Assembly (NCBI GenBank): GCA_024220525.1
Contig: JAMYWO010000172.1
Span: 17,860 to 81,859, forward strand
Length of the DNA: 64,000 nt
Direction: 5' to 3'
From: Cochliopodium minus
Taxonomy: Eukaryota; Discosea; Himatismenida; Cochliopodiidae
Shown here: positions 5,409 to 64,000 of the stretch, one piece after another
Layout of the letters: every line of letters starts with the position of its first letter
Position numbering within the stretch: the stretch's first letter is position 1
Position numbers and translations under genes: made by a program
The notes under the pieces: generated by a model
Told to the model about the DNA's origin: nothing
The model's input: the letters and a program-made list of their open reading frames with translations, nothing else
The model's database searches: none

Positions 5409-8400
5409 TTAAAAATTGAAAGCTTTTTCGATGATGTTGAGATTCTCTTTAGCGTGAAGATCACTACGACCAGTTGCAGGAGAAGCAGCAGAAGGTCTTC
5501 CGACATAGGAAACTCTCTTGTTAGCACTGATGTACTCCAAGCAGCTGTTCAAGTGGGGAGCGATGAAAGACCTTTTAAAAAAAAATAAAAAAAAATAATG
5601 AAAAACAAAATTAAATAATTTAATAAAAAATATTAAATAAAATTCAAAATAATAAAAAATAAATTAATTAAATAAAAAATATAATTAAATAAAATAAATT
5701 TTACCAAGCACCCATGTTCTTTGGTTCTTCTTGTGCCCATACGACTTGAGCATTTGGATATTTTTTGAATTGGGCAATGACCAAGTGATGTGGGAAAGGA
5801 GCAAGTTGTTCAACACGGACGAGGGCAACGTTCTTGATGTTTTGATTTTGCCTTGCGGAAAGGAGAGCGTAGTAGACTTGTCCTGAGCAGAAGATGACAC
5901 GTTGGATATTTTCTGGTGCGTGGATTTTTTCTGGTTCGGTTTCTGGGATGACGTGTTGGAATCTAGTGTGGTCACTTTTTTTAAAAAGGAATAAAATTAA
6001 AAAGAGAAATTTTGAAAAATAAAATGGAAATAAGAAAGAAAAAATATTAAACTTTTTAAAAAAAATAAAAAATAAAATTTAAAAAAAAAATTAAATAATA
6101 AAAAAAAATTAATCTAAACTGAAATAAAAAATTAAAAATTAATTTAATAAAAAATACCCGGTGTCATCAAAATCTTCAATTGGGGAAACAGCTTGAGGCA
6201 ATCTCAAAAGTTGTTTAGGAGTCATGACAATCAAAGGTTTTCTGAACTCTCTGTGAACTTGTCTTCTCAAAAGATGGAAATAGTTGGCAGGGGTGGTACA
6301 GTTGACGATTTGGATGTTGGTGTTTTGCATTTGCATGCTGAGAGGGAGGATAGGGTCTGGAATGATTTCTGGATCACTGTCGCTTTGTTGGAGGAAACGT
6401 TCGAGACGAGCACTGGAGTGTTCTGGTCCCATACCATCATATCCGTGAGGAAGCAAGAGGGTGATGCCTGATTGTCTCAACCATTTTTGTTCCCCTTTTT
6501 TTGAAGAAAATGATTATCAATTATAAAAAAAATGATTTTAATGAATGAAAAATATTTACAAAAATAATTAAAGATAATTAAAAATAAAAAAATGAAAAAA
6601 ATAAATAATATTTTTCTCAAGAATAATTATAAATATGAAAGAAATTAATAAAAAAAACTTACCAGAAGTGATAAATTGATCGATGATGATTTGAGCACCG
6701 TTAGCAAAGTCACCGAACTGAGCTTCCCAAAGAATGAGAGAGTTAGGATTCTCCAAAGAAAATCCGGTTTCAAAACCCAAAACAGCATACTCAGAAAGGT
6801 TACTGTTGTAGATCAAGAATTGCCCGTTGTTCTCGTCTTTTTCATTCAGTCTTCTCAATGGGATGTACTTGCTCCCATCCTTTTGATCAGTAACAACAGC
6901 ATGTCTATGTGAGAAGGTCCTATTCATTTTCAAAAAAAAAAATTTTATTTTTATTTTTATTTTTTATTTTATTTTTAATTTTGAATTTTTATTTCATTTT
7001 AAATTTAAATTTAAATTTGGTTTTTTTTACCCTCTTTCAACATCTTGACCTGTCAATCTAACGGTGTTACCTTCGAGCAAAAGGGAACCATATGCAAGGA
7101 GTTCTCCAGTAGCCCAATCGACGTTAGTTTTTGGGGTCATGTTTTGGAAGAGATTAGCTCTGGTGTCGAACAACTTGCGGAGATTTTTGTGTAAGTTAAA
7201 TTCAGCAGGTACAGTACTGATACCCAATCCAACCTAAATTTGTTAAAAAAAAATTAATAAAAAATTTAAAATAAAAAAACTTTTGTGTTTGTAATGGAAA
7301 TGTTTTTTTTTAAAAAAACGTTTACTTTCTTAAGGATATCGACAGAAACACCAGTATTTTTGATTCTGGCAAGTTGACCAGGGCTCTTAAAACCTTTCCA
7401 GTTGGAAGACAACCAATCGCTGCTCTTGAAGATGTAACCTTCGGATGATTTGTAAGCTTGCTCCATCACTTCCAAAATCTTGTTTCTCATCTCTTCTAAA
7501 CCTTCTTGAGTAACGACACCTTCATTGAGAAGTTGTCTAGAGTAAAGAGTGAGAGAGGATTCTTGTTTGCTGATTGCATCGTACATGATGGGTTGAGTGA
7601 AATTTGGATTATCTGCTTCGTTGTGACCGTGTTTTCTGTAACCAATGAGATCAATAACTACATCTCTTCCAGTGTGTTGTCTCCACATGACTGCTATTCT
7701 AGATGCTCTGATAACTGCTTCAGGATCATCAGCATTAACATGAAGAATAGGTGCTCCTAAAAAGAAAAAAAAAGAAGAAAGTTGAAAAAAAAAAGAAAAG
7801 AAAGAAAGTTTTTAAAAAAAAGGAAATTGATTCACTTTAACAAAGTTAAAACAGTTTTTTTTTTACCAACAGTCTTTGCAACTGCAGTACAGTATTCGGA
7901 TGATCTTGCATCTTTAGGATCAGTTGTGAAACCGATTTGATTGTTTACAACCAAGTGAATGGTACCTCCAGTGGTGAATCCTCTCAATTCGCTGTAATCA
8001 AAGCACTCATAGATGACACCTTGACCTGCAAAAGCAGCATCACCGTGCAAGAGCAATCCCAAAACTTTTTTTCTTTCAGTGTCTCCCTTGTAGTGTTGGC
8101 GAGCTCTTACTTTTCCCAAAACAAGAGGATTGACTGCTTCAAGATGGGAAGGGTTGGACAAAAGGGATAAGTAGATGTTTTTGCCTGATCTGGTGGTTCT
8201 GGAGTGAGATGTACCCAAGTGATATTTTACATCACCTGATCCCAAGATTTGATCCTTGATTCCTCCTTTGAATTCTCCAAAGATGGATTCCATTGGCTTT
8301 CTAAACACTGTGGATAATACATTCAATCTTCCTCTGTGAGGCATTCCCATGATTATATCTTCCACACCCAATTCTGAACTCATATCGATGATCTCCTTCA

Positions 8401-9632
8401 TACATGGAATCATACTTTCTTCTCCTTCCAATCCGAATCTCTTGGTTTGTTTATACTAATAAATAAAGGTGGCAAATTTAGATAATACAAATATATTATT
8501 TAAACTGAGAATATATCCTTTTCATCCAAATTTATTCTCGGATTTTTCCGTGATTATATTGATGAAAATCAAAGATTATTTGATTAATTTGCAAAAAAAA
8601 TTTTTTACTTTTGTTTCAAGGAATTTTTCAAACATTTCTGCCCACATCAATCTATCCAAAAGTTGGGTCTTTTCTTCCTTTGTAAATTGTTTTGTAGGAG
8701 ATTCAATGAGATCACGAAGCCAATTGCATTCATCCCTTGATGGAATATGCATATATTCAAAAGCCAAAGTCCCACAATAGGTATTTTTTAATAAATCGAG
8801 TATTTCTCTCAAAGTGACTTTTCTAAAAATAAAATAATTATTAAATTTTGTTTTTTTTACTGAATTTTAGAATCACATTCATATAAGTGATAAAATTTTA
8901 AAATATTAAATATAAATATCCACAAAATAAAAAGAATATATATTTCTTAATTTGAGATGAAAAGAAGAGTTTTTAGATATATTCTTTTGAATAGATTGTT
9001 ATTATGATATATTTTTAAATATTTCCTTTTATAAAACAATTTTACGTCTTATTTGCCAATAATAAAGTAGAAAGATTCTTTTCGATATTTTCAAGATTAA
9101 ATACTTTATCTAAGTCCTTTTCACTCCATCCATAAGTCTCTAGTTTTAATTCAGTTGGGACAGCATGCTTTGTTAATTTCAAAGGATCCAAATCAGCCAA
9201 CAAATGTCCACGAACTTGATAAGCTCTAATAAGCAAATGTAATTTCAAAATATCAGATACTTCAGAAGGATTAGAAGATGAATAAGATCTTGGTTGATCT
9301 CCCACATGATGAGATCCAGTAGAACCAATAGAAGGAGGTAATGTTATAGCTTCACCTGGTTGTACACCTTGATCTACATTTGTGAAATATACATCCCATG
9401 CTTTGTGAACACTAGATTTATCATTCCTCCAGCTTCTATACATTTCTTCAACATAATCTGCATTTGTTCCACCAATGAAAGATTCTGATAATTTGCTCAA
9501 TGGAACTGCTTTAGAGTAATGGCGTAATTTGAGGTTACCCCATCCATTGGCTTTATATTTCAATCCATTTCCATTATTCAATATATTGACGAGATACTTG
9601 TTTTTGGAAAATAATTTTGATACTTTTTGCAT
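5409..9632 (-). CDS. OGDH: 2-oxoglutarate dehydrogenase E1 component, mitochondrial
   Basis: This is the thiamine-diphosphate-dependent E1 subunit of the TCA-cycle 2-oxoglutarate dehydrogenase complex, converting 2-oxoglutarate to a succinyl group passed to E2. Nine exons were read: about 9632-9046, 8823-8610, 8455-7868, 7757-7330, 7236-7031, 6923-6662, 6495-6158, 5974-5704 and 5573-5409. The N-terminus is basic and Ser/Asn-rich like a mitochondrial presequence, then comes the family signature [20 protein letters not shown]. Next are the catalytic blocks [24 protein letters not shown] (ThDP/metal region), [10 protein letters not shown] and [12 protein letters not shown], then [19 protein letters not shown] and the C-terminal [13 protein letters not shown]. 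Order and total length (about 1,000 residues) match the eukaryotic enzyme, so the gene looks complete. Only some exon edges are uncertain. Confidence 0.96.
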
Positions 9633-18776: not shown

Positions 18777-21700
18777 TCATAAGAGCATATCACCAGAAAT
18801 GGAAATTTTCTTGAACTGAGAAAAAGAAGAAACTTGAGACTCAAAATAATCTTTGATCTGTGAAGAATTCTCAAAGTCCAAACAAGATTGGGTCAAATTA
18901 AAGATTTTGGATCCCTTCTCCCAAAAATAGGCAGCTTTTTCTTTTCTTCCTTTTTTAGAGTAATAATCAGCAGCAACTTGTACAAAGGCCAATGTTTTTT
19001 GAGTAAATTCTCCGGTGACTTGTTTCTTTTTTAAAATTTTAAAAAAAAAATTGAGATATTTGAAAAAAATTATTAAAATTTAGTTGTTTTACGGATGCAA
19101 ACAATGCGTTCAATAAATTTATGGAGATTTGAACAGTGTTTTTGCTATGATTCTTCCCTTTAATGCCTCCCTCATTAGCATCTTTCTTTTCATAATAATC
19201 CACTATCTCCAGTGCCAAATTTCTTCTTTGCTCGAATAACAACCTTTTTTAAAAAATAAAATAAAAATATGAGAATAAAATTATAAAATGAAAACTTATT
19301 TTCTCACCTTGAATATAAAGTTTTGCATAGAGAAGTTTTGACAAATTTATAGTAAAATTTTCTTTCCGCTTCCAAATGAAGTTTGACACCAGGAAAAGCA
19401 GAAACTTGATCATTGATTGTCTTATTATTTATTTTTTCGTTTTCTGATTCAATAAACTTTTTGGTAGATTTAGCAATGAAACCAGTCCTACAAAAAAAAA
19501 GTAAAAAATAAACTTTGATAAATTTTTTTTACAAAAAAAAAAAATCGATTTACGTGCACAGAAAATCCAAGTAAGAATCAATATGAATTATCTTTTTCTT
19601 GATTGGAAATATTTTTTTAAGGAGAACCGGAGTGAATTGCCGACCTAAAAAATAAAAAAAAGTTTTTAAATTTTTTTTTTGTGATTGAAAGAAATTCTTT
19701 TTATTTAATTTTACCAATGGAACTCGCAACTTTTAGGATCATTTGAGGAAGAGGCTCAAGTTGGTCAATTGAAGTGTTTACGATGGCTTGAACAGTCTCC
19801 GGGAGCTCTGTGATACTAAAAATATCTCCTGTTATCTCCAACACCCCATCTGTTATTGAAATGATCTATTGAACAAAAAAAAAAATTAAAAAAAAAATTA
19901 AGCAGAAAAAACGTAAAAATTTTGTTTACTCCTTTTGATAATAAATTCTCAACTGTTAATTTTGCAAACAATGGATTTCCTTCTGAATTGTCTATTATTA
20001 TTTCTGAGATTATTTCTTTTCCTGAAAAACAACCACTAGAATTAAAACAGAAAATGATTGTTTTTTAAAAAAAACTGAAATTAAAAAGTTTGAAAAAAAA
20101 TAGGAATTTACACGTGGGAATACGCCACAGCAGCTATACTTTTTTCTGACAAAGGAGGTAAAAAAAGATAGTTGTTCTTCGCTGTCATTTGAATACAATT
20201 ATTAAACAAATCCAGGTGTTTCTTCAAACTCTTTTATTAAAAAAAAAATGAAAATAAAATAAAAATAAAATGAAAAATGAAAAAATGAAAAATAAAAAAT
20301 AAAAAATGAAAAAATAAAATAAAATAAAATAAATAAAAATAAAATGAAAAAATGAAAAATGAAAAATGAAAATAAAAAATAAAAATAAAAAAATAAAAAT
20401 AAAATGTAAAAAGTTGAAAAATAAAATGAGATTTTTTTTTTTACTTTTGCAGAAGGACGAGTTGTCAAAATAAACAAAATTGGTTTTTGTGTTACAAAAG
20501 AAACAATGATTTGAAGGAGAGAAACAGAGAACTCATCCATCCACTGCAAATTCTCAATTATCAACAAAAGAGGTGTAAGCGAACTTTTTTGAAGAATGAT
20601 CGCTCCAATCAAACTACTCAAATGGTTTTTTCTTTGTTCTTGTGTAAATTTGCACGATTGGGTGTTTTCTTGAAATTCTTTTTTTTTTTGTTGAAAAAAA
20701 ATTTTTTATAAAATAAAAAAATTAAAAATAAACAAAGTGGAATGCATGTTGTTTACCTAGAGATGGAATGAGATCGTTCAACAGAGGAACGTAGTTTAGC
20801 CACTTTTTCCCAACAAACTGTTTTATGAAACTCTCCAAAGTATCCCGATTGTGTGAATTCTCCGTGTTTAAAAAGATCAACAATTGTTGTAAAATCTAAA
20901 AAATAATTAATAAATATCAAATTAAAAAATAAAAAAATTAATAAAAAATGATTTAAAAAATAAATTAATAAAAAATAATAAATAATTAATTAATTAAAAA
21001 TTATTTAAAAAAATAATTAATAAAAAATAATTAATTAAAAATTATTCATAAAAAAAAATACATTTTTCCACACAAAAAAAGGTGTGGACATTTCAATGGC
21101 ATCAGCAGAACCAATTACGTACAAACAATTCATTTTACGGGCAGCATCGATAGTCATGGTAGTCAACTTACTCTTACCTGCACCTGCAAATCCCTCTATC
21201 ACGATTACATCTCCTTTCTTGTGTTCTACCAAGTTTTGGAGGCTTGTTTTGATCAAATTGAGCTCATTTTTTCTTTCGTAAAACACTTTTTCCTCTTCAT
21301 TGAGCCTTTATTCAAAAAAAAATGATTAATTGAAATTTAAAAATTAAAAAAAAATTTAAAAATATTAAAAAAAAAAAACGATTTAATTAATTTCAAATTT
21401 TAAAATTAAAATAATTTAATTAAAATTAAAAAAAAAAACTTTTTTACCATACACTGTTTCTTATGGTGGATTTCTTTAGAGTATTGTGAGAATTGAATTT
21501 TGGGATGAAGATTTTGACTTTGTTCTTTTTCCCTTTTACAGAGATGCTTTTGAGTCGGGTAAACGAAATTTTCTTTCCGATCTGCTTCACTGTAGTTTCG
21601 TCACAAAGAATAGCTATTTTGTTATTTTCACAATGTATCATCAATCTTGCAGATAAATTTACAGTGTCTCCAACAACAGCATATTCTAAAAAAAAATAAT

Positions 21701-24700
21701 AAAAAATATTTAAAAAAATAATTTTAAAATATAAAAAAAAAATAAAAAAAAAATTTTTAAATAATTTTTAAAATATGAAAAAATAAAAAATAATTTAAAT
21801 TTTATATTTTATGTTTACCTTGACGTATTTTAGAACCAACAGACCCACAAAAAACTTTTCCAGTTGTTACACCTATGTGGGTGTTTATTCCTAGTTGAGA
21901 AAGATGCAAGTGTATTCCCTCTGCGGCTTTCACTCCTCTAAGTGCGTCATCCTCGAATCTCTTGGTTGCACCAAAAACAGCAATCAAAACAGTTCCCTTG
22001 TCTATCAATAAAAAATAAAAAATAAAAAATAAAAAATAAAAAATAAAAAATAAAAAATAAAAAATAAAAAATAAAAAATAAAAAATAAATTTTTTTATAC
22101 CATCAACAAGAAACTGTCTTACAATACCTTCGTATTTGAAAATTACTGACTGCATGAATCTCAAAGAGTCGTGGATCTTGTTGAGATCAAATTCGACATT
22201 CTTTTCGTAATTGAGCTGAGGAAGCTTGACGAACAAAACAGTGCACTGTCTCAACTCTGCGATCCAGCCAGATTGATCAGAATCTACCTTTTGTTGGACA
22301 TAGCGAGGAACATAGGACCTGAGAGATTCTTCATTGAAATAAGAGAGTTGAAGGTCTTCGTACTTGTAATTGTCTTCATACTTTTCTACTTCTTGAATCA
22401 GGTAATCTGAGTTCTCCGTTACCTCTTCTTCGTTGTTGTTTACCACAACGGAAGTTCTGCTTGTGAGTAGGAGTTCGCTGATGCTTTGTTTCTTTATTTC
22501 GTTCAGTTTGGGGAAAGACACGCTTTTGTTTATGATGTCTAGTTTGCTGTTACCGTTTTCTGCTTCTGTGTAACTCTCATGTTTATCTTTTTAAAAAAAA
22601 ATGAAAAAATTAAGTTTTTTATTTTGATTCAAGGGGAAAAAGATTTTTTTTTTTACCAACATTTTCTCCTTCTGAAATCTTGATTTCGTTGTCTGATTTC
22701 GAGAGAGGATCATCCAAATCACCTGTCATTCTTTCCTCTTTTACATTTTCATTGTCTTCTTTGTTTTCCTTGATAAATTCGATGTTGACCATGGATCCAT
22801 TCAAAGAATCACTCTCCATCTCATCTGTGTTTTCACAACTAAGGGAATCATTGCTGCTGGATGTTTTTTCATCATTTTTAAGGGATTCTACTTTGGGATT
22901 TTTTGGTTTTTCCTCTTCTTTGAAAGAAACATTCTTTGACTCCAAGTTTACACCATTTGCATCTTGTACAATATTATTGTTTTCTTTCTCCGTTTCGTTT
23001 TTATGTGGTATTTCGAAGTCAATTTTACTGTCTTCTACTTTATTTACTTGGAAGAACTTGCTAACATTGCTTTTTTCTTTCTTGGGTATTGGTGGAGTTG
23101 GAGAATAGTTAATTTCAGCAGGTATTTCCTTGGCAGAAACTTTATTTTTGATCAGATTGTAGCAAAAAGAAGATACAACTACTTCCCTTGAATTACTGTT
23201 ATGTACGGCTGTTTCTAGTTGTTTAATAGGATCTCCAACAACCTAAAAGAAAAGAAAAAATTAAATAAATAAAAAGGTAAGAAAATAGAAAAAAAAAAAA
23301 TAGTCTTGATTACCAAAAACTCCCAAAAACCATCAACACCTCCCACGTGTATTGCATTTAAATTACCTGAACCAATACCAATATGCAACATCAATTTAAA
23401 TCCTTCACCACTATCATACTCTGGGTATTTTGTTTGAATCTCAGTACCACATTGAACAGCTCTCAGAGAAACATCAGGCAAAGAAGATTCGTCATAGTAA
23501 GATCTGTCTGTGTTTAATTCATCACTTTCATAATTTGTTTTGTTTGTTATTTCACTGAGTGTATCAGAAGTTAAGCTTTTAACAATGTCGTGTCCACTCA
23601 AATTTTTGGGAAATTCCATGGAACTGTGGTAGGATTTCACATTCAATTCAGTAAGATGTTTATTTTTGGTAAATGTTCTTCTACGAAACTCTGAATTATC
23701 ATTGGTACTAAATCTTCTTTCGTTTTCAGGAATAAACAAGCAAATGAGAGCATCACCTATTTGAAGAGGGAAAAGAAATAAATTTTCATAAATTTTTTAA
23801 AAAGTAAAAAAATGTTTACCAGCAAACTTTAGAATGTCCCCTCCAAACTTGTAAACAACATCTATAATCTGGGTAAAATAATTATTGATGTGTTTGCTAA
23901 CTGCCTCAGGGCCAGCTGATCCTAACTTGGCAAGTTGTTCATTCAAAGAAGTGAATCCACTAATGTCTATAAATAAAATGCTCGCTGAAATTCTTTGAAG
24001 ATAAGGCTCCTTCCTGACTTGATTGTTATCTTTGATGTGTCTTCTAACAAAATTGGGAACATAAGAAGACAAAGTATCCACAATGGAATTATCTATTCCC
24101 ATTTTTGAGCTGAGATTCATTTTTTGAACGGGAAAGACGGTACACATGATAACAGATCTCACTTTTCTGTACTCAAGATTTTCGTTTTTGTTTCTTTTTT
24201 TCAACTTTTTTTTGGCTTCCAAATGGAACATACTTTCTATGGATCCCATCAATGGTTTGAAGCAGTTACAAGTGAAATTAATTCTTCCACTTTCTCCTCT
24301 TTCCAACTTGAAAAACTGAGGAGTGACGATGATCTCATAAGAAGAAGATTGAAACAACTCTGATTCGTTGATTTGAATTTCAAAATCAAGCATATCATCT
24401 CCTTCGTTGGTCACTGTTAAAAACGTAGATTTGGAAAAAGGAAACTTTGCATTGTTGTCACATACAAAAGAAATAGAAGTGTTATCCAATGAAATTAAAG
24501 GAAGATACCCTTTTAAAAAAAAAAAAGTTAAAAACTAGTTTTAATAAAAAATGTTTATGAAGCTTTTCATTTACCCTTTGATTCTTCATGCAACCATCTA
24601 ATTACTCTATTTTGAATGGCTTTGGTTTGTTGAGGAGCTTTAATCAACTTATTTTTTAATGATCTATTGTACTTTTCAAATGAACAAAACTTGACAAGCT

Positions 24701-26974
24701 CCTTAGTCAGCAAAGTGAGTCTCTTGTCGCACAAAAAGGCAAGGTTAAGAATACCTATCCCTACCCTAGTCACGAAAAAATGGTTTTTACGTATTTCTTC
24801 TATTCTTCTTGGTGTATATTGATGATATGAATGATTTGCATTCAACAAAAATCCCATCATATAAACATCTCCTCCATCACTATCATTATTTAATTTTGAT
24901 TTTTAATTTTTTTTTTTTAAAATAAAAAAAAATGAGATGATTTTTACCTTGATACAATAGTTGAATAATCACCTTTTTTTTTTTTGTAAATATTTTATTT
25001 TAAATATTTTTGTTTTTCACAAAAAAAAAAAAGTTTTTACCAGTCTGAATATAAATGAGAGTCACACCAGGCATTTCAACAGTGAAAGGCTCATAAATGT
25101 TTTCTAAACTTCCTCCACCACATTGACCATACTTGTTGGCTCCAAAAGTTTCTAGTTTGAAAATATTGGTTATCACAGAAGTGTGGTACTTTCCGCAAGA
25201 AACATCTTTTGCTTTTATGTGATGAACTATCTTTGGAGTTCCCACTATTATTTTGTCTTGTCCCAAACCTAACTGCCCATACAAATTCGATCCCCAACAA
25301 AACAAGTCACCATTATAAGCAATAGCTAATAAAATCATTTTTAAAAAAATCAAAAAATTAAAAAACTAAAATAAAATATTATGAAAATTATAAAATTAAA
25401 AAATTAAAAAAAAAAAATTATTAAAAAAATAAAAAACTAAAATATGAATTTTTTTTTAGAACCTGCACTATGCATCCCACCACAAGATACCTTTATGATT
25501 TTAATGTTAAATTTTATTTTGGACAAAGGTGTATTGGGACCACTTCTTCCTAATTGACCATTACCTTTATAAAAAAAAAAACCACAAAATAAAACAAATA
25601 ATGAAAATAATTAAATAATAATAATGATAAATAAAGTATTAATAATAAATAATAAATTATTAATAATAAATAATAAAATAATAATAATGATAAATAAAGT
25701 ATTAATAATAAATAATAAATTAATAAAAATATTTTTAAAAAATATTACTGTTATTTCCACAGGAATAAATTCCATTTTCAGTTAAAACAGCAGTATGATT
25801 TTCCCCACAAGCAAGAGAAAGTATTTTTTCGTTTTTGTCTATTCCCTCCATTTTGATCGGAAGACTTTCTTTCACATCCATATTTCCCAATTGTCCTGAA
25901 ATGGCCTCACCATTTTTGTCATAAGGTTTTTCATTTATTTTTTCTGCTCTATCAGTGCTTTTACCCAAAACCCAACTTGTATTTTTAACATTTTCTCCCC
26001 AAGAATAAATAGTATTGTCACTCGTAGACGCAACTATTTAAAATTTACAAATTTTTTAAATAAATTATTATTATTTATTAAATATAAAGAAAAAAAATTA
26101 TTTTAAATGAAATATTAAATTTTTCATAAAATTATTAAAAAAAGAAAAAAATACCAGAATGTGAATTTCCAACTGATACAAGATTGACAGAAGAATTATT
26201 GTTATCGTTCACTCTCAAAATTGTAAAAACTCCAAAAGCGCTGTTAGAATATTTCTGCTCTGTTTCGATGATGGTATTTCTCTCGAAATCCCACTTTAAC
26301 ATCTTGATATTGTTTTCCAATCCAACATAATCTATCCCTATCTTTTTATTTGCATTCATTCTTCCAATACATATGGGATCCACATTCTCTCCTGCTGTCA
26401 TATATAGCTCCCCAGATGCATTCACTGCTCCCATTATGTTACCCGTTACACTTAGTGAAGTTATATCATCAGGTATTTCTCTTATTAATTGAAGATTTTG
26501 CATCGTTTGTTGAAGATATCTTTGTCCAATTTCACCTGAATTTTTTCTTCCAAATATTGATTTTCTCCTTTCCTATTTGTTTCATTAGAAGAATAATTAC
26601 AATTTATATTTTTAGTATTTTTTATTTTGTTTGCATTATAGAAAATATGATTTGTATATCAATCAACCTAAAAAAAAAATACAATATATCCATTTATATG
26701 ATCAATATAAAGGAATTTTTACCTTTTGCATTGGTTTTGGACTATCAAAAATTTTATTCTTATTCAATGTTAAAATACTCTTCTTAGGAGTTGTATATTT
26801 TTCTTTTTTTTCCTCCATTGCTGTTGAATTCTCTTCCTCTTCCAAATAATTTTTTATGATAGTTTTAAACGATTCATTAAACAATCCAATTGTAAATACT
26901 GATCCTTTGGTATTCAAAATTTTTCTATCATCTATTTGAAGATTGTATGAAAATGATTTTTTGTCATTCTCCAT
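18777..26974 (-). CDS. RCC1-repeat / paired class III nucleotide cyclase / STAND ATPase fusion (soluble adenylyl cyclase-like)
   Basis: About 22 exons, roughly 1,900-2,000 residues. Order: a short N-terminus; four to five RCC1 blades (TIYSWGE, QLGNMDVKESLP with CGENHTAVLTENGIYSCGN, GDLFCWGSNLYGQLGLGQ, KYGQCGGGS); a 25-nt exon giving GDYSTIVS; then GGDVYMMGF. A beta-sandwich-like region follows (LTVTNEGDDMLDFEIQINES, RGESGRINFTC). Cyclase domain 1 is SASILFIDISGFTSLNEQL with LKFAGDALICLF, so both metal-binding Asp and the nearby Lys are present. A long acidic linker leads to domain 2: ELRQCTVLFVKLPQ, DDKGTVLIAVFG, GVTTGKVFCGSVGS and YAVVGDTVNLSARL. Next is an ATPase with Walker A EGFAGAGKS and Walker-B-like LLLIIENLQWMDE, then helical repeats. 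Cyclase-ATPase-helical order is that of soluble adenylyl cyclase and dictyostelid sGC. Phases match at every junction checked between the RCC1 and cyclase parts, so this is one gene. Product (cAMP or cGMP) is uncertain. Confidence 0.82.
22007..22090 (-). repeat. Heptanucleotide repeat (AAAAAAT)n inside a cyclase-domain intron
   Basis: About eleven head-to-tail copies of a 7-nt unit fill most of an intron of the cyclase fusion gene, between the exons encoding QFLVD and DKGTVLIAVFG. Read on the minus strand the intron has no stop in the coding frame, and the frame is preserved on both sides. Confidence 0.85.
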
Positions 26975-30034: not shown

Positions 30035-33000
30035 ATGCAAAAACAAGTCTCAGATGAGAGAGTTTTGGATTTTCTAAAGAAAGAAGAAGCAATAAAAAGA
30101 TTTATCTCAAAAGTACTTGAAGTATCATTGAATGGAGATCTTCATGATTGTAAAATAAAAATATAATAATATATATTTTCCCCCTCCTTATAAATTTGAA
30201 AAAAAAAATTCTTCAAATAGTACTCAAAAATGGAATCACTCTTTGTTATTTGATGCAAGCAATTGAACCAAGATCAATTCCAAAAATACAAGAACAAACA
30301 AATCAAATATATAAATTTAAAGAGAATATTTACTTTTTCATACAAGCCACATTAGATTTTGGTGTTCCTGAAATCAAAATTTTTAGAGATGTAGATTTAT
30401 TGGAAGGAAATGGAATGGCAAAAGTAAAAAAAATTCAATTTTATTCAAATCAATCCTTAAATCGATTTGATATTTAGGTTGTGGAGGTGATTTTTAAACT
30501 ATTTGAACATTATCAATCTAAAATATCGAAAAAATATAGTGTCTCGCAGATTTGGTAAACATTTCTCAAAATTAAATATTAAATTTTAAATTATGCTTTG
30601 TTGAAAACAAATATATCCAAATAAAATAACTCAATAAATAATAGATTAATTTGGCATATCCATTGACTCAAATTCTTTTGAAAAACTATCTAATTCAATT
30701 AATTCTCATAATTCTATTTTTTTATTTTTATTTTTATTATTTTTTCTTTTAGGCGAATAGAGCATCAAAAGAGAAAAATTTTCCAGTATTGGATATCCCT
30801 ACCAATTGGACATTGGATAAAGTAAAAGAGTTGGATCCAACCAAATTGAAACAAATTAAAGAACAATTATCGAAGATCAGAGAAGCTCCAGTTAATACTG
30901 GAAGAAAATTAGTGAAGATGTCATCTGCCATTTTTAGAAGAAAACTTCAATTATTTTCGAATAATCAAATTGATAGTAAGTATCCTTTTAAACTATACAA
31001 TCTAATTTATCAATTAATCAATTTATTTCAATCAATTTTTAGTGGATAAGCTTGATAAGGGTGTTGCAAGGTTTCAAGCATTGTTTCGTGGTCATACCGC
31101 AAGAAAAGCATACAAAAAAAGAAGTATATTTTTCCTTATTTCATTATTAAAAACTAAATAAAAAAATATTTTGGAAACATCAAAGATATATTATTTAAAT
31201 AGAAGATATAATAATAATTTGAGAAAGTATAATTTTATTTATAACAGAGAAATACTCAAATTATAATGTTTTGCAAGATAATATTCAATTCTCTTTTTAT
31301 ATCGGAATTAAATTTTTTTTTTTGAACTAATTTAACTTTTCGTTCCATGCAAAAATTAAAAAGTGAGAGATGCAGCATATAGAGAAAGAGTGGCAAAGGA
31401 AATTTTACAAACAGAAATAAGTTATGTGGAAGCATTGGGGATATGTATAGAAGTTTTTTTGGAGCCCCTAGAACAAATGTCCAAAGGAAAGAAAGCACTC
31501 CTCACTGGCGATCAAATCAAACAAATTTTTTCAGAGATTAGAGTACTTCATGGATTTAACACTAAACTTCTTAATTCTCTTCAACCCGTTGTGAAATCCT
31601 GGTATGCTCAGTGTAATCCTCCTTTTTTTTAAATTTTCAAATATTTTTTTTTTCAAAATTTTTTTGTTTATCATTGTATAGCTTGTTTGGGAGACATTTT
31701 CCTATCTATTGTTCAATTTTTAAAAGTGTACACTGGTTATGTAATCTTTTTTTTGTTTAATAAATTCCACTTTTACCTTTTTATTTTATTTTTTTATTAT
31801 AAATTAATTTTTTAATTTTTTTATTAAATTAAATTAATTTTATTAAATTCAAACATTGATATATCCAATTATTTTATAAATTCATATACTTAAACTTATT
31901 TATAACCTTAATGTCTTCAATAAATTGAATAAAAAAGGTGCAAAACTACAATTCGAGTCTCAACGTATTAAACAGCAACATAAAAAACAAAAAACTTCAA
32001 AAGTTTCTTTTGGCAGGAAAAGACAACGTAAAGTCAAAGGGAAGAGACCTCCAAGCATTTCTCATCCAACCCATTCAACGTATCCCCAGATACAGTCTTT
32101 TGCTTAATGATCTTTTAAAAAACACGTGGAATGATCATCCCGATAAAGGAAGTCTTCAAAAAGCTAATGATGAAATCCAGAAAATCGCCACTTTTTTGAA
32201 TGAGAAGAAAAGGGAGGCTGAGAACATGAACAAGGTTCAGCAGATTCAGGATATCATTCATCGTACCAACGACAAGTTTAGTTTGATTTCTGCTGGCAGA
32301 ATCATGCTTTATGAGGGTAAAATATTCTATATATAAATACTTTCCTAATTGAATATTTTTTATTATCTTTGATTTTTTAAATTTTTTATTGTAAATTTTT
32401 TTTTGTGATGTCTTGGATTTTTTCTTTTATTTTTGTTTATCATATTTTTTTATTTTATTCTGTTATTTTTTTCAATTAATTTTTCATTCATATTTTTTTC
32501 CTTGATTTATATTTTTTTCATTTTTTTTTCAGATTTTTAAATTTTTTGTTTTTAAATTTTTTGTTTAGGGGATGTGCTCGATAAGAAAGAAAAACCATTG
32601 GCGATATATCTGTTCAACAATATGGTAGTAGAAATGGAGAAAATGAATAAACCAAAGGATGAGAAAGTTTCTATTTACGAAGACGAAGAGAGGTTGAAAT
32701 ACATTAAATTCAAAGATGCCTACACCATCAGTGACAATTTTAGTTACACAGTCTCTACTCCAAAGTAAAATTTCTTTTTAAAAAAAATTAATTCAAACAT
32801 TTTTCAATTTATTATTTTGAATTTATATTTATTCATTTTAATTTTATATATTTTAAATAATTTTATATTTTTTAATTTTTTTTTTAAATTTAATTTTTAA
32901 TTTTTGTTTTTATATTTAACAAATTCCATTATTTTTTTCATTTTTTAATTAGTGAAGGACAAACGAACCCACCATACTCAATAACAATGCAAGTTCAACC

Positions 33001-33918
33001 AAGAGAAATTACTTTTTATTTTCATGCAGAAAAGTTGTTTGAGGGATGGAAGAGTCAACTGGAACAACTCAAAGAGAAACTTCACACTTCCAAAGTACAC
33101 AAGGAGCAGGCTTCCAAAGGAAAGGAGGGGAACAGTAAAGATTCTTTGAGCACTCCAAACACTCCCACTTTGCGTCCTGAAGAGGAACTTTTGTTGAGAA
33201 AAAAGAAAATGAGCTTTTCTCCTTCTACCAACGTTTCCATCAGCCAGGTTCCTTTTCTTAAAATTATTTACTTATTTATCTGTTTAAAAACATTTTTTAT
33301 TCATTTTTTTCTCATTTTTTTAATTTAAAAAATTTTTCTTCCCCTTGTTTTATTTACATCATTTTTCCTAGGATTTGAAGGATTCATCGAGTGAAGAAAA
33401 AAATAAGAATTTGAGACAATCTTCTCCGAATAACTCAAGCCAAAAACTCACTCCCAGCAACCTTTCCCTCAACAGAAGTTCCACCGATACTAACAGCACA
33501 ATATTGAAAGAAAACAATGAAGACACTGAAAAGAAAAATGATGTTAACAAAGATGAGCCTAAAAAACCAGAAGTAAAACTGTTTAAATCTTCATTTATCT
33601 CTTTAATATTTTTATTTTATTTTATTATAATTTTATTTTATTTTTACTTTAATTTTTTAAACGTTTTGTTTTTAGGAGACTCCAAAGATTGAAAACAATT
33701 CTCCAAAATCAGAGCCTAACAATGGTAACACCAAAAGTGAAAAACAACCCATTCCTAAAAAAACTGTAGAAATAAAACCAAAGAAAGAGAAAGAAAAAAA
33801 ATCTAAAAAGGACAAAAAAACCAAAAAAGGAGGAAACCAAGATGATGAATGGGAAAAGATTATCCAATCTAATTTGATAACTGGTCCAAAAAACAAAAAA
33901 AATACTGAGAATAAATAA
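30035..33918 (+). CDS. CH-IQ-RhoGEF (DH-PH) protein, Rac/Rho guanine exchange factor
   Basis: The start ATG at 30035 begins an exon that splices (GTAAAA...TAG) into KNGITLCYLMQAIEPRSIPK and IYFFIQATLDFGVPE, a type-3-like calponin-homology domain. Downstream exons give an IQ motif (FQALFRGHTARKAYKKR, near 31060-31130). The DH domain starts with VAKEILQTEISYVEALG and has its conserved helix at AFLIQPIQRIPRYSLLLNDL. A PH-like region follows (LAIYLFNNMVVEME; EITFYFHAEKLFEGWKSQL). The tail is low-complexity, Ser/Thr/Asn-rich then Lys-rich, ending near 33918. DH-PH proteins load GTP on Rho/Rac GTPases to drive actin; the CH and IQ parts would link it to actin and calmodulin. This architecture is known in dictyostelid Rac GEFs. 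About ten introns were read; several internal borders (31620-31930) are approximate. Confidence 0.85.
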
Positions 33919-63005: not shown

Positions 63006-64000
63006 TTAAAGAAACTTGATAATCATGTAACAAAGAGGACGGGGAATTTTCAGAGGATGTTTGCTCAATTTGGAATTGTTGAAAAACACTTTCAAATACA
63101 TCAAAAATCCAAAAACAGTGTCTCTAAAACTTTCACAGTAAAAATTATGCAAAGAAGGAGACCATTCCTTCCACAATTAAAATTTTTTTTTAAAAAAAAA
63201 AATTTTAAAGAATAAATTAAAATATTTATAATATTTGAATGAAAAAATTAATAATAATCAGAATAAATAATATTTCAAAATTAAAAAATAAATTCCTTTT
63301 TACTTGGTGAATCTCATGACCATGGGGCAAGATAACGGGATCTATTTTTAACTTTTGGGCTTGACTAACGTCCTTTTCGTTTCCTAATCCTACCCTTCCA
63401 TACGTTCCCCATCCACAAGTAAAAACTTCTTTATTTTCTTTTCAAATAATAAAAAAGGCAAAGCAAAAAATAAAAGTAAGTAAAATAAAAAAAATAAAAA
63501 AAAATAAAAAATAGAAAATAAAAAATAAAAAATAATAAAAATTTAAAAAATAAAAAATATAAAAATGAATATAAAAAATATAAAAATAAATATAAAAAAA
63601 TAAAAATAAATAAAAATAAAATCATTTTTTTTTACTGCTCACAAAGATAGTGTGGTTAATTCCCGTTGTTACTCTGTAAAGATTGGGAAATTCAACTTTG
63701 GTGAAAGAATCGATAATTTTGGATGAAAGATTAAGTTCTAAAAATAAAAACATATTCAATCAAATAAATAAAAAAATATTAAAAAAAAATTTTACGTCCA
63801 AATTGATTAAATCCACTACCATAAATATTTCCACTTTCTTTTTTTACAAAGGAAAAAAATTTTTTTAAAAATAAACAAATGTTAATATTACCAGTCACAA
63901 TGAAATAATGTCTTCCTAAAAATATAATAAAAAAATTTATAAAAAATAAAAAAATAAAAAAATAAAAAATAAAAAAATAAAAATAAAAAATAAAAAATAA
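63006..64000 (-). CDS. RCC1-repeat protein, C-terminal part (gene continues beyond the window)
   Basis: Several small exons carry RCC1 blade signatures in order: GRHYFIVT (about 63890-63920), GNIYGSGFNQFG (about 63797-63840), RVTTGINHTIFVSS (about 63640-63740) and VFTCGWGTYGRVGLGNEKDV (63305-63440). The last exon (about 63178-63006) is not RCC1-like. It reads KEWSPSLHNFYCESFRDTVF, then GFLMYLKVFFNNSKLSKHPL and ends CYMIIKFL. That C-terminal extension may be a separate helical domain. RCC1 propellers act as Ran exchange factors or as protein-interaction modules; nothing here shows Ran specificity. The N-terminus is outside the window. Confidence 0.65.

Follow-up and report, generated by a model that had tools for sequence, protein, structure and literature searches.

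We analysed a window of 64,000 nucleotides (nt) of Cochliopodium minus DNA (contig JAMYWO010000172.1, in short C172:17860-81859, of a 44,654,751-base assembly in 598 contigs) that contains, on its minus strand, a gene joining an RCC1-like propeller to a cyclase pair of the soluble adenylyl cyclase (sAC) type, hereafter the RCC1-cyclase gene. The window is AT-rich (GC 20-32% in 2-kb steps), and scans of it with Rfam and for tRNA genes gave no matches. The open reading frame from 26974 to 18777 consists of 23 exons; its start ATG lies exactly at 26974 and its stop exactly at 18777, and removal of 22 introns leaves 5961 nt that encode 1986 amino acids (aa) with no internal stops, a model read from sequence only. 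All introns run GT...AG and measure 63-214 nt, with the donor of intron 4 (GTTCTA) as the single off-consensus donor among the 22. The features of the gene are as follows.

18777..26974, minus strand: whole gene model, 23 exons, 22 GT-AG introns, 1986 aa (spliced open frame)
24753..26557, minus strand: RCC1-like propeller, aa 90-498, exons 2-7 (Pfam PF25390 and PF00415; PDB matches)
24948..24972, minus strand: 25-nt exon 6, (G)DYSTIVS(S), within an RCC1 blade (spliced open frame)
24510..24574, minus strand: 65-nt intron 7, which separates the RCC1/linker exon from the sandwich/cyclase exon (spliced open frame)
24124..24507, minus strand: beta-sandwich-like segment, aa 559-686, tentatively PapD/ASH-like (PapD_N below cut-off)
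23141..23991, minus strand: cyclase domain C1, aa 731-969, with a long insert; metal Asp D739 and D789, K785 (Pfam, PDB alignment)
21495..22332, minus strand: cyclase domain C2, aa 1216-1417; N1363 and R1367, base-contact positions Q1288 and A1356 (Pfam, PDB alignment)
20469..21283, minus strand: P-loop ATPase (AAA_16), aa 1441-1630 (Pfam PF13191 over cut-off)
18777..20468, minus strand: C-terminal tail, aa 1631-1986 (no Pfam family over cut-off)

The sequence-only reading of the window had described a single gene made of an RCC1 propeller, a sAC-like cyclase pair and an ATPase, with splice phases running unbroken through a 25-nt exon. Both claims were borne out: the frame stays open across all 22 introns, the exon at 24972-24948 is real, and a Pfam search of the spliced protein placed RCC1-like, RCC1, Guanylate_cyc and AAA_16 domains over their cut-offs. 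The RCC1-blade-like sequence GDYSTIVSSDGGDVYMMG spans exons 5-7 and encloses the 25-nt exon. At the junction between propeller and cyclase, where a separate promoter had been considered, intron 7 (24574-24510) is in correct phase and its 65 nt leave little room for one. According to the list of open reading frames, read-through into this intron meets a stop (ESKGK*), and because of this an RCC1-only isoform ending there may exist.

The propeller profile PF25390 (WD40_RLD, RCC1-like) matched aa 90-498 with E 1.4e-49 and 169.8 bits against a cut-off of 150, covering profile positions 4-357 of 363, and PF00415 (RCC1, E 9e-35) and PF13540 were also over their cut-offs. Tandem RCC1 repeats thus span the whole propeller profile. 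A home-made single-repeat profile, built from the same family loci described below, so that Pfam is the independent test, found five repeats in the RCC1-cyclase gene (one at E 0.39) and, in the sister locus on contig C155, seven at 143-505 (one at 0.034) with an eighth at 0.77; the propeller presumably has seven blades. Its PDB matches were UVR8 (2.4e-39 to 1.2e-38) and RPGR (about 2e-37), followed by the weaker HERC1/2 (3.5e-29 to 2.5e-26) and RCC1/SRM1 chains (7.6e-22 to 1.8e-18). The nearest solved propellers by sequence are therefore UVR8 and RPGR, not RCC1 itself, and for this reason Ran exchange is not specifically favoured. A Ran guanine nucleotide exchange factor (GEF) as the default reading was rejected, as nothing beyond the fold class speaks for it.

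The cyclase pair matched Guanylate_cyc (PF00211) in two stretches over cut-off (E 1.4e-15). Its best PDB match, human ADCY10 (E 1.5e-36), aligned in three stretches that cover C1 and C2; it is the closest among solved structures only, and the printed alignment to it served to map residues. The chain accordingly holds two class III cyclase domains, as a sAC does. The ADCY10 residues D47 (here D739), D99 (D789), K95 (K785), V406 (V1357), N412 (N1363) and R416 (R1367) are kept, and K144, R176, K334 and T405 are changed to H912, E945, Q1288 and A1356, respectively. Guanylyl cyclases carry a Glu/Cys pair at the base-contact positions, and the Gln/Ala found at positions 334 and 405 is neither this pair nor that of sAC. 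In sAC, Asp47 and Asp99 bind metal, Arg416 contacts the alpha-phosphate and Asn412 serves product release, while Lys144 contacts pyrophosphate, Lys334 and Thr405 the base, and Lys95 and Arg176 bicarbonate, as reported in PMC12867704 and PMC12250328. Of the bicarbonate site of mammalian sAC, only the lysine (K785) is present, Arg176 being replaced by E945. Substitutions at this site are reported to be usual in non-mammalian animals too, and sea urchin and salmon sAC reportedly answer to pH, not bicarbonate (PMC12867704). By this alignment, one site is largely preserved on its metal and phosphate side, its base recognition is changed and the mammalian bicarbonate switch is lost.

The same positions were compared across the family. 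Both metal Asp, Lys95 and a His at position 144 are identical in 8/8 C1 rows, and position 176 is Glu in the RCC1-cyclase gene and Lys in its seven sisters. For C2 there were six rows (C173 and C88 not included): position 334 is Gln in four and Asn in two, position 405 is Ala in four and Thr in one of the five rows that reach it, the gene model of C251 also having Thr, and Asn412 and Arg416 are kept in all four rows that extend to them. The combination Gln334 and Ala405 occurs in the RCC1-cyclase gene, C155, C2 and C127, and Asn334 and Thr405 in C44 and C251. Elsewhere in the genome there were 13 exon-level matches to PDEase_I and 45 matches to cNMP_binding, 40 of them over cut-off; with such sequences in the genome, cyclic nucleotide signalling is probably present in the host.

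The ATPase follows C2 as in sAC (AAA_16, PF13191: E 2.4e-10, 41.6 bits against a cut-off of 32.6). It contains GFAGAGKS from aa 1471 and IIENLQWMD, which we take to be a Walker A and a Walker-B-like motif, respectively. Behind it comes a tail of about 350 aa, in which no Pfam family was over cut-off and which may correspond to the helical or TPR tail of sAC. A search of the part from C2 to the end with NCBIfam gave a TOMM kinase/cyclase model at 63.7 bits, far below its cut-off of 705.75.

Between propeller and cyclase, the beta-sandwich-like segment proposed earlier found a faint echo in a PapD-like match at aa 559-686; no family model for a PapD/ASH (MSP-like) sandwich was over cut-off and no confident fold was obtained. 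PapD_N reached E 0.019 in the whole protein and 5e-4 when the segment was scanned alone (20.5 bits against a cut-off of 23). When seven sandwiches of the family were scanned singly, each match was confined to one member; PapD_N, Cep192_D3, an Ig-like DUF and Cep192_D4 scored best, ahead of ASH and a DLEC1 Ig domain. The Cep192_D3 and Cep192_D4 matches, in one sister, were below cut-off (Cep192_D3 at 16 bits against 27). A sandwich profile searched against the PDB gave a best E of 0.028, and the sister segments share only 17-30% identity with that of the RCC1-cyclase gene. We regard the assignment of aa 559-686 as a PapD/ASH-like sandwich as tentative. On the 5' side of the sandwich, the linker carries [IL][QE]NR..W in 4/7 rows, with weaker likeness in the others.

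A genome search with the C1 domain gave at least 16 matches on at least eight contigs: C172 (the RCC1-cyclase gene), C155, C2, C127, C173, C251, C44 and C88. Two overlapping stretches were retrieved for each sister locus, and the count of C1 loci is a lower bound. RCC1 matches lie 5' of C1 on the same strand in six of the seven sisters, so that, with the RCC1-cyclase gene, 7/8 loci show RCC1 followed by a linker and a sandwich-like segment. The fusion that had been thought unusual is thus real but not peculiar to this gene, with seven of the at least eight family loci carrying the propeller. The single-repeat profile detected RCC1 in stretches L025, L027, L031, L033, L035 and L037 and none in L029/L030 (C127:46000-64900). 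PF25390 exceeded its 150-bit cut-off in all six RCC1-bearing sister N-terminal parts (156.5-235.2 bits; C127 not scanned). With 45-63% identity between the C1 domain of the RCC1-cyclase gene and those of its sisters, the loci are divergent duplicates, not assembly repeats.

The sister loci were modelled with a small gene finder whose training gene was the RCC1-cyclase gene itself, for which reason its recovery of 23/23 exons there is circular. It was checked on one unrelated gene, adenosylhomocysteinase, for which it predicted five exons; predicted residues 5-467 align with 23-485 of a solved relative, with equal lengths. In the PDB, this adenosylhomocysteinase is closest to 6uk3 and next to 5v96, structures from Acanthamoeba castellanii and Naegleria fowleri, respectively. 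With default settings, one model took in both RCC1 and C1 in five of the six RCC1-bearing sisters (C155, C2, C173, C251 and C88). The C155 model runs uninterrupted from RCC1 through sandwich, C1 and C2 to the ATPase (1829 aa, or 1919 aa after retraining of the gene finder); its exon 5 carries RCC1 blades into the linker, and its exon 6 (759 nt) holds the sandwich together with C1 motifs (SGFT, FAGDA). The models for C173, C251, C44 and C88 are incomplete, being broken or stopping short in the C2 region, and with a stronger penalty some models extend into neighbouring genes; only the matched domains are therefore claimed. Since the order of propeller, then cyclase, recurs in the sister loci, a true fusion is best supported, and we consider it almost certain that propeller and cyclase form one fused gene.

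RCC1-like sequence is abundant in this genome, with at least 147 exon-level matches to PF25390 (112 of 990 candidates scored), some of them in frames of more than 800 aa (contigs C16, C26 and C10). These counts point to a large RCC1 expansion, and other RCC1 fusions are possible. Because such sequence is common, a single RCC1 neighbour could be due to chance; with seven RCC1-bearing loci that have related linkers, chance adjacency is hardly likely.

We propose, at a confidence that we put midway, that the gene encodes a sAC-type (ADCY10-like) soluble nucleotidyl cyclase whose N-terminal propeller and sandwich act in cis as a regulatory or docking module. A single working site would be built from both cyclase domains, the two metal Asp coming from C1 and the Asn and Arg from C2, with the P-loop ATPase and tail placed after C2 as in long sAC. 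Propeller and sandwich would keep the cyclase low, or would position it, and binding of a partner to them, a small GTPase being one candidate, would change cyclic-nucleotide output. The RCC1-like tail of NEK9 is reported to autoinhibit its own kinase (PMC12564199), and the RCC1-like domain of MYCBP2/PAM/Phr1 to inhibit adenylyl cyclases of types II and V in trans (PMC4806438). Because the one acts on its own enzyme and the other on adenylyl cyclases, regulation or positioning in cis is suggested, and for regulation by the propeller we hold the balance to be even. A bolder version, which we think unlikely, is that these proteins are single-chain sensors in which the propeller reads a small GTPase or another partner and opens or closes the sAC-type cyclase directly. 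Such a sensor would do in cis what PAM does to adenylyl cyclases in trans; control by bicarbonate would have been lost and recognition of the base rebuilt, with control by the propeller taking their place.

Several points weigh against the proposed cis-regulated cyclase. The gene model was placed by hand from the sequence, without transcripts. A single-sequence structure model of exon 8 had a pLDDT (predicted local distance difference test) of 36.6 and was unusable, and because of this the sandwich rests on weak profile matches. Contact between propeller and cyclase is hypothetical. The default model of C44 is split between sandwich and C1 (129784-133014 and 133780-136179), and its parts were joined only with a stronger penalty, via a 404-nt intron. 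In C127, which keeps C1, C2 and ATPase sequence, the stretch of about 9 kb on the 5' side of C1 contains no detectable RCC1; cyclases of this type may thus occur without the propeller, at least within that distance. In the active site, the base contacts Lys334 and Thr405 are changed and the pyrophosphate contact Lys144 is His, which departs from sAC; with the base contacts changed, the nucleotide used, and even activity, is uncertain. As Lys334 and Thr405 are not kept, we give adenylyl activity about an even chance, and cyclic AMP would be the product by kinship to sAC only.

The readings that compete with the proposed cis-regulated cyclase differ in how well they survive. One that we hold possible, at clearly lower probability, is that the propeller is a localisation or scaffold module only, which would bring the enzyme to a membrane, the centrosome or the cytoskeleton, with catalysis unaffected and the sandwich aiding docking. 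RCC1-like domains are reported to mediate protein-protein interactions (PMC12564199), RPGR is among the nearest solved propellers, and the sandwich matches include Cep192 and ASH models, albeit below cut-off; on the other hand, no target motif was identified. A search for ciliary markers (ParcG) gave no match, but its controls were also silent, so that it is uninformative. Comparable to the scaffold in its chances, and likewise a minority view, is a guanylyl or mixed-specificity cyclase with sAC layout, as in the dictyostelid soluble guanylyl cyclase (sGC). The replacement of Lys334 by Gln and Thr405 by Ala in the RCC1-cyclase gene, C155, C2 and C127 would fit such an enzyme; however, these residues are not the Glu/Cys pair of guanylyl cyclases either, C44 and C251 keep Thr405, with Asn334, and among solved structures the nearest is that of an adenylyl cyclase.

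We consider it improbable that the propeller, as an exchange factor or effector, couples a small GTPase to the synthesis of cyclic nucleotides, the route put forward in the sequence-only reading next to targeting to chromatin or a membrane. RCC1 itself acts as a GEF on Ran, and the RCC1-like domain of PAM has Ran and Rheb exchange activity in vitro (PMC4806438), which keeps the GTPase idea alive without supporting a GTPase link in the RCC1-cyclase gene, whose propeller resembles RCC1/SRM1 (7.6e-22 to 1.8e-18) less than UVR8/RPGR (2.4e-39 to 2.4e-37). Two adjacent genes, one for an RCC1 protein and one for a sAC, misjoined in a model made from sequence, would accord with the stop that ends an RCC1-only product in intron 7 and with the split in C44, but are very improbable and were rejected in view of the 65-nt junction intron in correct phase, the repetition of the order in 7/8 loci with related linker and sandwich, and the joining of RCC1 to C1 in one default model in 5/6 RCC1-bearing sisters.

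Some further observations concern the surroundings and relatives of the gene. A C2-and-ATPase-like piece at C44:125943-126688, 5' of the RCC1-C1 part and on the same strand, may be a tandem ninth copy or a rearrangement. Class III cyclase genes were also found by Pfam on contigs C1, C294, C11, C9 and C55, outside the RCC1 count. At 261696-266636 of contig C1 (L001-L005), there are five Guanylate_cyc matches, each within an open frame of 1940 aa; the starts of the last four are spaced by 1101 nt, and three of the matches have identical scores. This region is a predicted tandem array of near-identical cyclase units. Within the window, an open frame with weak likeness to RCC1 (home-made profile, E 6.6e-5) lies on the minus strand at 63229-63441, near the window end. 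Judged by eye, a gene model with CH, IQ and RhoGEF-like parts occupies 30035-33918 on the plus strand, and one like mitochondrial oxoglutarate dehydrogenase E1 occupies 5409-9632 on the minus strand; together with a type II NADH dehydrogenase-like model elsewhere in the genome, also by eye, the latter indicates an aerobic host, and Anaeramoeba was rejected as host on these grounds.

Among known systems, the animal sAC ADCY10 in its long form is close in layout. It shares the sAC-type C1 and C2 with their metal Asp pair and Asn/Arg pair, and has a P-loop ATPase and a long C-terminal tail after the cyclase pair, as in the RCC1-cyclase gene; to our knowledge, it carries no RCC1 propeller or sandwich. 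The RCC1-cyclase gene differs from it further in Gln334, Ala405, His144, Glu176 (Lys in seven sisters) and a long insert in C1. Dictyostelium sGC has a sAC-like layout in an amoeboid protist, with cyclic GMP as product. Physarum is reported to have a homologue of it (PMC4758236), and the Acanthamoeba and Physarum genome papers describe kinase-flanked and other cyclase layouts (PMC4053784, PMC4758236), with no occurrence of "rcc1" in their main texts. In excerpts of a Tetrahymena survey, a P-type ATPase-cyclase fusion and RCC1-motor fusions appear and no RCC1-cyclase (PMC3143110); in NEK8/NEK9 and in the Tetrahymena myosin-RCC1 and kinesin-RCC1 proteins, RCC1 repeats are fused to a kinase or a motor, not to a cyclase (PMC12564199, PMC3143110). 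Prokaryotic relatives of C1 were found at 43 loci, among them Chloroflexota, Herpetosiphon and Myxococcales, where the best segment reaches at most 57% identity, with two weak relatives on viral contigs, and none of these 45 loci showed an RCC1 repeat within flanks of at most 6-8 kb, many of them shorter. Among the matches listed from open-licence PMC texts, with eukaryotic proteomes outside the scope, there was no report of an RCC1-cyclase fusion; such proteins may well be entered in InterPro and yet have gone undescribed in print.

Taken as structure, the RCC1-cyclase architecture is well supported, and a mechanism is proposed only. The regulation of sAC-type enzymes in organisms other than mammals is an open question, and a built-in propeller makes mechanism directly testable. 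If cis regulation holds, it would add a cis-regulated branch to protist cyclic nucleotide signalling. MYCBP2/PAM/Phr1 is a ubiquitin-ligase protein separate from the cyclases that it inhibits, whereas the RCC1-cyclase gene places propeller and cyclase in one chain.

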